Positions 13,560-36,586 of a DNA stretch of 64,000 nt are shown piece after piece; within the stretch, counting starts at the first letter, position 1, and every line of letters starts with the position of its first letter. Origin of the DNA: Pelotomaculum thermopropionicum SI. Lineage in GTDB: Bacteria; Bacillota; Desulfotomaculia; Desulfotomaculales; Pelotomaculaceae. Made by a program: the position numbers and the translations under genes. The DNA lies in assembly GCA_000010565.1 (NCBI GenBank), contig AP009389.1:496001-560000 (forward strand), given 5' to 3'. Under the pieces are notes generated by a model. That model saw only the letters and a program-made list of their open reading frames with translations, was not told where the DNA came from and did no database searches.

Positions 13560-14744
13560 TTAAGGCGCCTGGGGGAGGGCCTGCTGCCGGTTCCCGGCGG
13601 CGCCGGAGGCCAGCCGGGATGCCTGCCGCCTGACCGAGTGGCGCAGGATCACCCTCCATACCTCTTCGGCCAGTTCCGTGTCGCCGCCTGCGGTCAGGGA
13701 AAGCTGGCGGACGCGTGAAAGAATTTGTTCCTCCCTGAGCGGGTCCCTGATGTTGCCCTCATTTTGTTTAAGCGAGGCCACCCGGTCGATCAGCCGGGTG
13801 CGCTGCGCCAGCAGTTCCGCTATTCGGGCATCCACCGCGTCCAGCTCGCGCCGCAGGCCGGCGAGGGTAAGGGATGCCTCCCGTCCGCCGCTCGCTAAAG
13901 CGTCTGTTCCGGCGCAGTTCCACGCCGGGTAGGACCCCAGAATCTTCAGGCCTACCGTTAAAGAAGCCACTCCGCCCAGCACCTCCTGAACCCCCGGCTG
14001 GCCCTGCGAGCCCAGAAAGTCTATGAAGAACACGTAATCGCCCAGATTTTTTTTGGCCGGCCTTGATTCAATGCGGGTCAGGTTAATGCCGCGCAGGGCA
14101 AATTCGCGCAGGACAGCATACAGCGCCCCGGGCCGGTCCTGCAGGCCGAAGATGATGGACGTTTTATAACCGTGCGCAGCAGCGCAGGGAACCTGCTCTC
14201 TCCCCAGCACCCAGAAGCGGGTGGCGTTGTCAGGGTAATCGTTGGCGGCCGGTACAACAACCTGCAGGCCGTACACGGCAGCGGCCCTGGCCGGGCCGAG
14301 GGCAGCCCAGGGACGGGAACTGCCGGCCACCTTTGCGGCGGCGGCCGCCGTGCTGGAGCACTCCACCGGCAGGGCGCCTGGAAGCTCCCGGCGCAGGAAC
14401 CGGCTGCACTGGGCCAGGGCCTGGGAATGGGAAAAGACCTTTTCCACCTGATCCAGCCTTGTACCCGGGCGGACCATTAAGGACTGGCAGACGGGCAGGA
14501 GAACCTCCCCCCGCACCGCCAGGTTAAACGGCCCTGCCAGCAGGTCCAGGACGGCGCCTACCGAACCCTCGGTAGAATTTTCCACCGGGACAATCCCCTC
14601 GTCAAACCTTCCCTCTGCAACCCCGCTAAAAATTTCTTCAATAGAGGAGCAGCCGGCCGTTTCTCCTTTTCTTTCGCCCAGGTGGCGAAGGGCTGCCTCT
14701 TCTGAAAAGGTGCCGCGGGGCCCCAGGTACCCGATTTTATGCAT
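13560..14744 (-). CDS. pheA: Prephenate dehydratase with ACT domain and C-terminal chorismate mutase
   Basis: Bifunctional enzyme of phenylalanine synthesis: chorismate to prephenate to phenylpyruvate. Start ATG 14744 (GGAGGAGGTG upstream) gives 394 residues. Order seen: prephenate dehydratase about 1-180 ([37 protein letters not shown] with the TRF motif); ACT domain about 195-270 ([18 protein letters not shown], then the ESRP phenylalanine-binding motif); then an AroQ-type chorismate mutase about 295-375 ([32 protein letters not shown]). In the well-known enterobacterial PheA the mutase is at the N-terminus, so this fusion is in reverse order. The start overlaps the DAHP synthase stop by 8 nt, so the two are translationally coupled. 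The pair is controlled by the upstream T-box. Confidence 0.93.
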
Positions 14745-15528
14745 ACAGCACCTCCTCCCTGACAAACCGCTTTACGGCAGCGGCCACCGTTTTAAGCTCC
14801 TCCATCAGGGCGTCGAACTCGTCCGGGGGCAGGGACTGGGGGCCGTCGCACAGCGCCTTGCAGGGTTCCGGATGAACCTCGATGAGCAGGCCGTCGGCGC
14901 CGGCCGCCACCGCCGCCCTGGCCATGGGTGCCACCAGGCTCCGGTCGCCCGTGGCGTGGCTGGGGTCCACTATTACCGGCAGGTGGCTCAGCCTTTTTAC
15001 AACGGGTACGGCGCTCAGGTCGAGGGTGTTGCGCGTGGCTTTTTCAAAGGTGCGGATGCCCCGCTCGCACAGGACCACCTTTTCGTTGCCCTCGGACACG
15101 ATGTACTCGGCAGCCATGAGCCATTCCTCAATGGTGGCGGAAAAGCCGCGCTTTAAAATGACCGGCTTGCCTGACCTGCCCACCCTGCGCAGCAGATGGA
15201 AGTTCTGCATGTTCCGCGCCCCTACCTGGACCATGTCGACGTATTCCAGCGCCAGTTCAAGGCTGGCCTCGTCCACCACTTCGGTTACTGTTGCCAGCCC
15301 GGTTTGGGCGGACGCCTCGGCAAGCAGCTTTAAACCCTCTGCCTCCAGACCCTGGAAGCTGTAGGGCGAGGTTCTGGGTTTGTAGGCGCCACCCCGCAGG
15401 ATGGCAGCCCCCGCCTGCCGCACCCTGTGTGCGGCGGCAAGCAGCTGTTCCCTGCTTTCTACGGCGCAGGGGCCTGCAATGACGGTCAGGCTGCCGTTTC
15501 CGATGACTGCGTTTTTTACCGTTACCAC
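14737..15528 (-). CDS. aroF: 3-deoxy-7-phosphoheptulonate (DAHP) synthase, class I beta type, 5' end disrupted
   Basis: Condenses phosphoenolpyruvate and erythrose 4-phosphate, the first step of aromatic synthesis. The frame begins at GTG 15528 and encodes the barrel: [65 protein letters not shown]. Before this GTG there is no ribosome site. The usual family N-terminus ([10 protein letters not shown]) is encoded just upstream in another frame (15522-15578), so a one-base shift near 15530-15545 separates start and body. The N-terminal ferredoxin-like regulatory domain of longer relatives is absent. Expression is controlled by the upstream T-box. Confidence 0.88.
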
Positions 15529-15578
15529 ACTGCTTTTGCCCTGGATTCCCGGCTTACCAGTTTGTACGGCTTCATCAT
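15522..15578 (-). pseudogene. Out-of-frame N-terminal segment of DAHP synthase
   Basis: From ATG 15578 (second ATG at 15575; AAGGGTG 5 nt before) the frame reads [18 protein letters not shown] and then stops. PYKLVSRE is the conserved segment that immediately precedes the barrel in DAHP synthases of this class, so this is the true translation start. The rest of the enzyme continues in a different frame from about 15540. Either a sequencing error, a real frameshift mutation or recoding. Confidence 0.7.
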
Positions 15579-15615
15579 GGGTACACCCTTTCGCTCCTTA
15601 CTGTTAAGGTAAATA

Positions 15616-15660
15616 TAAAAAAGCCTGCCGCTTCCGCAAAGGGACGAAAGCGGCAGGCTT
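15616..15660 (-). terminator. T-box terminator 2 (proximal to aroF)
   Basis: Long hairpin AAGCCTGCCGCTT / AAGCGGCAGGCTT with its T-run on the minus strand (15622-15616). It overlaps the T-box 2 antiterminator and ends about 40 nt before the aroF start. Confidence 0.9.
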
Positions 15661-15756
15661 CCGCGGTACCACCCTGATTGGCCGGTTGGCCCTCTCTTAA
15701 AAGGTACGGGAATGTTCCCCAAAAATGCCGTCCGGGGCCGGCAACACCGGCCGGAA

Positions 15757-15793
15757 AATTAAAAGCTTCCCGTCCTTCAGGGACGAGAAGCTT
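15757..15793 (-). terminator. T-box terminator 1 (distal)
   Basis: AAGCTTCTCGTCC / GGACGGGAAGCTT hairpin followed by TTTTAATTTT on the minus strand, directly after the first T-box sequence. Confidence 0.88.
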
Positions 15794-16078
15794 AATGCTT
15801 TCCGCGTTACCACCCTGGTTGGCCCGTGGAGAAAATACCACGGCACCCCCTCGACAAGAGTACGGGAACTTTCATTCCGATACCCCCTCCCGTGTAACGT
15901 CGGGAGCTTACGGCCCAGCCTACTTGCCGCGCTTTTGCGGTTTCAGCCGGCGTCTCCGGAGAGAACTTCAACAGGTCATATCCTGGGAGTGCTTCCAGTC
16001 GCCGACACTCCCTCCCTGGAGGACTGTTTCCGGTCTACTTTTCTCCTTCATGGACTTTAGGCATATAAATTTAAGGTT

Positions 16079-16108
16079 AGTATAGCATACGGGAAAAACA
16101 ATGCGCAA
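16079..16108 (-). promoter_or_regulatory. Promoter of the aroF-pheA T-box leader
   Basis: Minus-strand TTGCGC (16108-16103), 18-bp spacer, TATACT (16084-16079). Transcription would start near 16072, just before the T-box Stem I. Confidence 0.6.
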
Positions 16109-18611: not shown

Positions 18612-18917
18612 CAAGTTATATTTGGAAACGCTATGAAGGGGACCAGGGCCTGAGTATTGAGCCACAGAGAGCCGGGGCAGCTGAAAACCGGCGCTTTAAA
18701 TACCCGGCCTGACATCACCCCGGAGCTGCCGGCTGAAAGCAGTGGCAAGTAGGCTGGGCCGGAGCTGGCGGCCGTTAAAGCGCCGTGCCGGGTAAGGCAC
18801 ATTAAGGGGCTTCCGCGTTTTTTTGGAAGCAAGCAGGGTGGTACCGCGCAAGGTTTTAAACCTCTCGTCCCTGGTAGTTACGAGGACTGCCGGACGAGGG
18901 GTTGTTTTATTTTTAAA
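18612..18917 (+). promoter_or_regulatory. T-box riboswitch with Ile (ATC) specifier, ahead of ilvE
   Basis: A complete T-box leader: Stem I with AGTATTGAG, specifier ATC at 18714-18716 (GACATCACC) in the same position as TTC in the aroF T-box, a conserved GCCGGCTGAAA downstream, the T-box AGGGTGGTACCGCG at 18835-18848, and a terminator formed by CCTCTCGTCC (18861-18870) and GGACGAGGGG (18892-18901) with a T-rich tail. Uncharged tRNA-Ile would stabilise the antiterminator and allow transcription of the ilv-leu-cimA operon. Confidence 0.93.
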
Positions 18918-36148: not shown

Positions 36149-36225
36149 CTATTTGAGGTCACCCCGTTTGGAGGTGGAATATGGGAGAAAAGCCCTGAGC
36201 CGGCGGCATGGAAAAAACTGAATAG

Positions 36226-36435
36226 CTAAAGCGCCAGAACCCTTCCCGGAGTGCGGGAACGAATAAGGCCCGGGGAAAGCGGGCGTGCCATGGCCTGCCT
36301 GCCTGCATGGCACGGGCCTTTAAGGGTTGACGAGGAGGGGGTTAATCGAGTTTTTCGGCGGGTGCCCCCCGGTCCGGCCGGACCGTTAGCGGCATTACAA
36401 AACCACCGGGCAACCGGTGGGACAAAAGTGCCAGC
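36226..36435 (+). ncRNA. glmS ribozyme (glucosamine-6-phosphate-activated self-cleaving RNA)
   Basis: The hallmark A|GCGCCAGAAC stands at 36230/36231, with cleavage expected just before G36231. Further conserved parts are GGGTTGACGAGGA near 36327-36339, TCGGCGGGTGCCCCCCGGT (36355-36373) and the 3' hairpin ACCACCGGGCAACCGGTGG. It lies between glmM and glmS in the usual place. Cleavage with GlcN6P as cofactor would lower glmS expression. The rest of the 438-bp gap (36436-36586) contains no gene. Confidence 0.95.
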
Positions 36436-36586
36436 GGCCTGAAGCGGCGTGGTGTTGTTTAAAGGGGTTAGTGCTGCCTTTTTTAAGGCTGCCCAATACG
36501 AGGTGTAATCTATGCCGTGGCTTTAACCATGCCCCGGCTTTTATTTTTGCTTACAGTGCCATTCCCATTCGACAGGAGGTACGCAA

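Follow-up and report, generated by a model that had tools for sequence, protein, structure and literature searches.

How can two T-box switches in front of one operon be served by a single tRNA sensor? This question is raised by the aroF-pheA leader on the minus strand of the window, a 64,000-nucleotide stretch of Pelotomaculum thermopropionicum SI DNA. T-boxes with duplicated terminator-antiterminator elements were reportedly described by Vitreschak and co-workers in 2008. The gross architecture of the present leader is probably already known, and the window locus may be among those 2008 examples. In the available text of PMC7583486, the mode of action of partially tandem T-boxes is given as unknown. 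A 2022 review of tandem riboswitches (PMC9481103, Figure 1 legend) distinguishes, in the part available, five architectures; a single aptamer serving two platforms is not among them. In the following, the second switch of the leader and its link to the sensor are described.

Materials and methods

The window and the genome (3,025,375 bases, single contig) were searched with the Rfam covariance model RF00230. A discriminator covariance model was trained on 11 T-boxes of this genome other than the aroF-pheA leader.

An AroF match was obtained in 60/60 relatives, and loci were taken for the 30 best matches, one of them being that of the window. Hairpin X was sought in 113 genomes of the order. 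There were 107 hits; 26 were already among the loci, and 80 of the remaining 81 were added. The search behind these 80 loci specified E5 and the first copy of its partner strand only, not the second strand.

One genome per species (84,980 species) was scanned for pairs of T-box cores separated by about 100-160 nt. A crude filter kept 97 loci and dropped 21 as Stem I apices, coding sequence or repeats. It erred at least twice: L098 was lost despite its hairpin X, and L122 stayed although it resembles a Stem I apex.

Double leaders numbered 83 in the analysis of strand mismatches (in L022 no second strand was found), 81 in that of duplex energy (more than two mismatches dropped) and 79 in that of stability (loops longer than 12 dropped). 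An earlier leader set comprised 78 leaders from 148 loci (30 + 118), of which 66 were kept and 58 were nonredundant.

The downstream families tested in the two-core set were phosphoserine transaminase, aminotransferase, anthranilate synthase I, periplasmic binding protein and amino-acid ABC permeases; those in the hairpin-X set also included PaaK-like ligase, ABC substrate-binding protein and solute symporter. The remaining downstream gene names were assigned by eye.

Results and discussion

One sensor and two switches precede aroF-pheA

The features of the locus are listed in Table 1. Two antiterminator/terminator modules lie on the minus strand, their cores spaced by 141 nt, downstream of one T-box Stem I. 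RF00230 matched once (16060-15776, minus strand; 86.3 bits, E 2.5e-19), and relaxing the threshold to E 10 brought up no further match in the interval separating the sets. At 86.3 bits the window leader (L013) is under the RF00230 gathering score of 93 bits; this model has 12 matches in the same genome, 6 of them under that score. Among six loci, the gathering score was reached by L043, L069, L118 and L194 and missed by L102 and L013. Module 2 was missed by RF00230 because the model requires Stem I, and the interval of only about 110 nt leaves no room for a Stem I plus module between the sets. A second Stem I was rejected since RF00230 matches once; hence this is not a fully tandem T-box, which has a Stem I per module. 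Instead, one Stem I is followed by two complete modules, as in duplicated terminator-antiterminator leaders. The earlier note on this DNA had read the locus in this way, as one Stem I with a TTC (Phe) specifier and two sets with no second Stem I between them; this was confirmed, with UUC at 15965-15963 and both modules modelled, and its coordinates for both sets fit.

Table 1. Features of the aroF-pheA locus (window positions).
Feature	Position	Strand	Basis
Candidate promoter TTGCGC-18 nt-TATACT	16079..16108	-	by eye; absent from promoter-scan list
Complete T-box: Stem I, II, IIA/B, Stem III, antiterminator 1	15776..16060	-	RF00230
Specifier UUC (Phe)	15963..15965	-	Rfam alignment; tRNA-Phe GAA in genome
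Stem IIA/B pseudoknot region: CUCCCG, F-box ACGUUA, CGGGAG	15887..15906	-	sequence and Rfam alignment; pairing inferred
E5, shared 5' strand GGUAUCGGA of hairpin X	15876..15884	-	E5-loop-strand pattern in relatives
Hairpin X loop AUGAAAGU; its AUG complementary to CAU before second strand	15868..15875	-	
X3-1 UCCCGUACU, module 1 3' strand of hairpin X	15859..15867	-	
Stem III, module 1 (CCGUGG/CCACGG)	15824..15843	-	sequence
Antiterminator 1 (AGGGUGGUAACGCG...CGUCCCU)	15779..15816	-	34.5 bits; fold alone -9.8 kcal/mol
Set 1 elements: AGGGTGGTAACGCG; CGTCCCT; terminator stem	15816-15803; 15785-15779; 15793-15763	-	
Terminator 1 with U-rich tail	15755..15793	-	pattern scan, 13 pairs
CAU and X3-2 UCCCGUACC, second 3' strand, can pair with E5 and X loop	15703..15714	-	
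Stem III, module 2 (GGCC/GGCC)	15680..15691	-	sequence
Antiterminator 2 (AGGGUGGUACCGCG...CGUCCCU)	15640..15675	-	41.6 bits, E 2.2e-9; fold alone -12.6 kcal/mol
Set 2 elements: AGGGTGGTACCGCG; CGTCCCT; terminator stem	15675-15662; 15646-15640; 15662-15619	-	
Terminator 2 with U tract	15613..15662	-	pattern scan, 19 pairs
aroF, DAHP synthase without N-terminal domain	14737..15528	-	TIGR01361 403.6 bits, profile from position 14; NF006421 from position 83
pheA, prephenate dehydratase and C-terminal chorismate mutase-like domain	13560..14765	-	NF008865 286.2 bits

Both modules were recognized by the discriminator model: module 2 at 15690-15639 (-) with 41.6 bits (E 2.2e-9) and module 1 at 15831-15778 (-) with 34.5 bits (E 1.9e-7). 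The only higher-scoring match in the 64 kb was a training member; the next match otherwise had 11.4 bits. Both terminators were picked up by the pattern scan. When 70 nt from each core were folded, the terminator stem formed (-31.8 kcal/mol for module 1, -39.3 kcal/mol for module 2). By folding, antiterminator and terminator are mutually exclusive in each module; the two structures share CGUCCCU in module 1, whereas those of module 2 overlap in the stretch ending with UUUCG. The specifier UUC matches the tRNA-Phe GAA present in the genome, and aroF-pheA follows downstream. Both modules have a UGGU bulge, complementary to the ACCA end of the tRNA-Phe found in the genome.

A further suggestion of the earlier note, that a second signal acts at module 2, met with nothing in its favour. 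The second bulge is the same UGGU and fits tRNA-Phe ACCA, the operon is the same, and no other Rfam family was found in the interval at its cut-off; an Rfam E-value scan over module 2 gave only weak matches to unrelated families. We regard such a signal as very improbable. The proposal of a partial-duplication cascade fared better: one sensor and two serial switches were found, so that read-through would need both, and a partial duplication is the best reading of the locus.

Two sequences had been named as repeated in the second set. The repeat of TTCCCGTAC is genuine, yet its partner strand GGTATCGGA is present once only. As for GGGCCAACC, in set 1 it makes up the linker and 3' arm of Stem III, but in set 2 the 5' arm and loop; it was rejected as a duplicated element because these structural positions differ, and the inspected relatives are mostly without it in module 2.

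Overlapping GC-rich hairpins were also seen between the modules. One (15743-15726, minus strand), followed by TTTTT, is terminator-like in the scan; another (15752-15736, minus strand) was noticed by eye.

Module 2 repeats one strand of a shared hairpin

Upstream of module 1, after the F-box and the IIB strand, GGUAUCGGA (E5) pairs with UCCCGUAC(U/C) to form hairpin X. Like class I transcriptional T-boxes of RF00230, the leader has a Stem I specifier loop, a IIA/B pseudoknot with F-box, Stem III and a UGGN-bulged antiterminator competing with a terminator; it differs in having two platforms for one sensor and in hairpin X, an addition that separates IIA/B from Stem III. Module 2 repeats the 3' strand of hairpin X only, E5 being unique, and the bases preceding this second strand are complementary to the hairpin X loop. 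The earlier note missed this shared hairpin strand kept by module 2, which would offer a physical route to reuse one sensor.

The arrangement is widespread among relatives. Two T-box cores, 110-174 nt apart, were found in 28/30 of the best aroF loci; the exceptions were L020, without a recognisable first core, and L038, with a damaged first core. Hairpin X, detected as an E5-loop-strand pattern, occurs in 77/113 genomes of the order, and the reversed pattern in none of the same 113. A T-box core accompanies hairpin X in 100/110 loci, 84 of them double and 16 single. Among aroF leaders with hairpin X, 63/64 are double, and they span 14 families of the order; a second core arose by chance in 0/320 shuffles. 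In these 63 the second core has at most 3 of 14 mismatches, and 0 or 1 in 54/63, in a search that required GTGG. The Phe specifier context GAAGTTC was present in 82/84 double leaders. A terminator-like stem follows the core in 63/63 (T1) and 58/63 (T2) of the real aroF doubles, by a loose test that shuffled stretches pass in 45/189 (T1) and 43/189 (T2) cases.

These counts bear on the possibility that module 2 is a decaying, functionless duplicate. The aroF of the window genome has lost its N-terminal domain, and motifs are damaged in a few relatives (L020, L022, L024, L038), as decay would predict, but the second core is kept in 63/64 X-bearing aroF leaders, and a terminator-like stem follows it in 58/63 against 43/189 shuffles. 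We consider a functionless module 2 very improbable.

The repeated strand is itself conserved. The second strand UCCCGUACC was present with at most 3 mismatches in 83/84 doubles, of which 45 have it unchanged; in shuffled intervals an exact copy turned up at a rate of 0.02%. No conserved local partner of it was found: a run of at least 6 pairs occurs in 39/61 aroF doubles and in 58% of shuffles. A local partner such as GGGAACAUUCCC in the window was rejected, being no commoner than in shuffles over the 61 aroF doubles.

The two cores of the aroF doubles differ slightly, the first having mostly GGUAAC (49/63) and the second mostly GGUACC (57/63). UGGUAAC also occurs in five single hairpin-X leaders, before metG (L181, L182) and prephenate dehydratase-type genes (L199, L210, L239), the gene families of single leaders having been checked for L181 and L199 only. 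Two other T-boxes of the same genome have an X-like hairpin (L005:1501-1767, GGUAUAAGGA...UCCCGUACC; L008:1501-1759, GGUACCGGGAA...CCCCGUACC).

Predicted pairing of the second strand with E5 and the loop

The hairpin X loop and the bases upstream of the second strand are complementary in register. In 78 nonredundant leaders, the Watson-Crick fraction was 0.525 at offset 0 vs. 0.299 expected, and 0.218-0.348 at other offsets. For example, the loop UGAGUGA of L036 is matched by ACUCA and the loop AUAGAUUU of L188 by AAUCUAU; L018, L026 and L204 are alike. Over 81 leaders, the duplex energy was -12.6 kcal/mol for a leader's own strands vs. -9.6 kcal/mol for swapped strands, and 13/14 families went in the expected direction; the single leader of family f6 went in the opposite direction. 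With one leader per family the values were -13.6 and -9.7 kcal/mol, a difference reached in 0/2000 draws. For 12 of these leaders, cross-family swaps pair at least as well as the leader's own strands.

Independent evolution was simulated on the sensor-part tree for 61 aroF leaders. The simulated excess was 0.00 (sd 0.027, maximum 0.086), and the observed excess of 0.217 was reached in 0/300 runs. Branch-by-branch parsimony gave no excess of compensatory double changes (4 in the true register; 1, 1, 3 and 6 in others). The simulation was given more weight because it uses all pairs and not just single-branch changes. Selection on an RNA-RNA pairing between E5 and the second strand is well supported.

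In 77/79 leaders, the second strand with E5 and loop was computed to be more stable than hairpin X, duplex and hairpin energies being not strictly comparable. In many leaders the first position is mismatched or the toehold is short, and the window leader has 3 toehold pairs. Its alternative folds, computed without tRNA, differ by about 1 kcal/mol, with hairpin X slightly preferred (-204.1 vs. -203.2); they carry little weight because pseudoknot, tRNA and kinetics are ignored and no canonical Stem I is formed. Such similar energies would fit a switch.

The same pairing data, and the fact that the E5:second-strand helix necessarily undoes hairpin X, would also suit a device in which this helix breaks the contact between sensor and module 1, freeing the tRNA, and module 2 is a mostly constitutive attenuator or sets a delay. 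A release device needs no second T-box core, yet that core is kept in 63/64 X-bearing aroF leaders, and we consider this explanation improbable.

Two-core leaders in other bacteria

The species scan yielded at least 119 loci, and the pattern was found again in 118/119. The earlier note held that tandem T-boxes are usually whole repeats; this needs limiting, as the species scan, which counted close pairs of T-box cores, gave many of them in several lineages. Among the 97 listed loci, 44 fit the hairpin-X strands, 14 are Lactobacillales-type and 39 are others. A generic RNAduplex test against shuffles was significant in only 28% of these 97.

The 14 Lactobacillales-type leaders stand before amino-acid ABC transporter genes (permease families checked for 4/14) and have the same strand relation in unrelated sequence. 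Ten are from Lentilactobacillus, Loigolactobacillus, Lactiplantibacillus or Lacticaseibacillus; the group also holds L128, L131, L150 and L155. E5 and loop of L069 read GGAGTTTAGTGATA, to which the second strand TATCACTAAACTCC is perfectly complementary; in L102 TGTTTTTCAACCAC complements GTGGTTGAAAAACA. Fourteen unbroken pairs (G-U allowed) are present in 7/14 leaders, two of which are identical in that stretch. The self energy was -16.5 vs. -7.1 kcal/mol for swapped strands (0/5000 permutations), in a permutation that is not a phylogenetic test because the 14 leaders share ancestry. Rfam confirmed a single T-box in L043, L069 and L118, but not in L102.

By eye, no clear strand copy was seen in the trp and serC semi-tandem leaders; therefore, not all semi-tandem leaders work by strand relay. 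Series action without a copy must accordingly be possible, and together with the UGGU bulge and full antiterminator in both modules this speaks for serial but independent switches, in which antiterminator 2 would be stabilised by the acceptor end of a second, unanchored uncharged tRNA, or by the Stem I tRNA without re-docking, and the repeated strand would be a remnant of duplication. A remnant, however, is unlikely to match its own loop in 14 families or to recur with unrelated sequence in the Lactobacillales group, so that independent switching seems unlikely for the leaders described here.

A proposed strand relay between two platforms

The reading that we favour, and hold to be fairly probable, is that in this Phe-responsive T-box a single tRNA sensor serves two serial expression platforms, the second strand re-docking the sensor by invading hairpin X. 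During transcription, hairpin X would form with the first copy and set the sensor over switch 1. If tRNA-Phe is uncharged, antiterminator 1 would form and the polymerase would continue. The second copy would pair first with the hairpin X loop and then displace the first copy by branch migration, bringing the same sensor over switch 2 with module 1 looped out. The tRNA 3' end would be tested again at the second UGGU bulge, through one tRNA that moves or perhaps a second tRNA that lands there, and only one tRNA would have to be held by its anticodon. The operon would be made only when both tests were passed, and leak-through would approach the product of two leaks because the polymerase must pass both platforms. 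As a mechanism, the strand relay is moderately supported.

For the Desulforamulus-containing family (f11), whose members include Desulforamulus aeronauticus, putei and aquiferis, folding predicts in 7/7 aroF leaders a pairing between the aroF SD region and all or part of the UCCCU in the 3' arm of antiterminator 2. Module 2 may, on this prediction, be translational there. T2 was called in 5/7 of these leaders by a loose terminator test that 23% of shuffles pass; some of them may therefore have a mixed terminator/sequestrator. The chances are about even that Desulfotomaculum-type aromatic leaders and Lactobacillales ABC-transporter leaders, with unrelated sequences, both have a natural RNA relay in which toehold-mediated strand displacement of a shared hairpin passes one tRNA-loaded sensor to the second platform, and which in Desulforamulus would go from transcriptional to translational control with one sensor for both levels.

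Several known systems resemble parts of this design. Duplicated or partially tandem T-boxes have the same gross architecture, but a shared-strand relay is not described in the available part of PMC7583486. Fully tandem T-boxes and tandem (pseudo-cooperative) riboswitches also place two serial checkpoints under one ligand, whereas they have an aptamer per platform according to the accessible text of PMC9481103 and PMC12452182. In the bi-mechanism SAM-II then SAM-V arrangement, as given in the available part of PMC9481103, transcriptional control precedes translational control, as we infer for the Desulforamulus-containing family, but with two aptamers in place of one sensor. Strand invasion also selects the helix in strand-exchange expression platforms (PMC10907184, accessible text); there the outcome is on or off, whereas here it would shift the sensor between switches. 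In the open literature text, which included parts of PMC7583486, PMC9481103, PMC12452182, PMC10907184, PMC2494555, PMC2965389 and PMC7778990, no description of a shared-strand relay was found, and the strand link between modules looks new.

The shared strand gives a prediction that can be addressed by mutation: with three to nine bases changed, the second switch should lose the sensor, and with pairing restored it should regain it. If the relay is true, one sensor with several outputs joins the known tandem riboswitch designs, and natural strand displacement that moves an aptamer between platforms would be useful for RNA engineering.

Genes of the operon and other elements in the genome

The start of aroF (15528-15580, minus strand) is about 180 nt nearer module 2 than in most relatives. 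A remnant of the aroF N-terminal domain is present in another frame, and compared with L015 one base is missing from the stretch that follows SRE. The genome has a second AroF, with a 339-aa open frame, at G000:C1:1713218-1713973. For the C-terminal domain of pheA, mutase models score under their cut-offs.

Another T-box leader of the genome (L002:1501-1800, G000:C1:843837-844136; 125 bits) encloses an entire tRNA-Ala (GGC) gene (L002:1666-1740). The tRNA gene sits between the F-box region and the antiterminator, and the leader precedes an AMP-binding acyl-CoA ligase gene. Elsewhere in the window, a T-box barely above the cut-off (18624-18875, plus strand) precedes a gene for a branched-chain aminotransferase, and 36219-36443 (plus strand) holds a glmS ribozyme.
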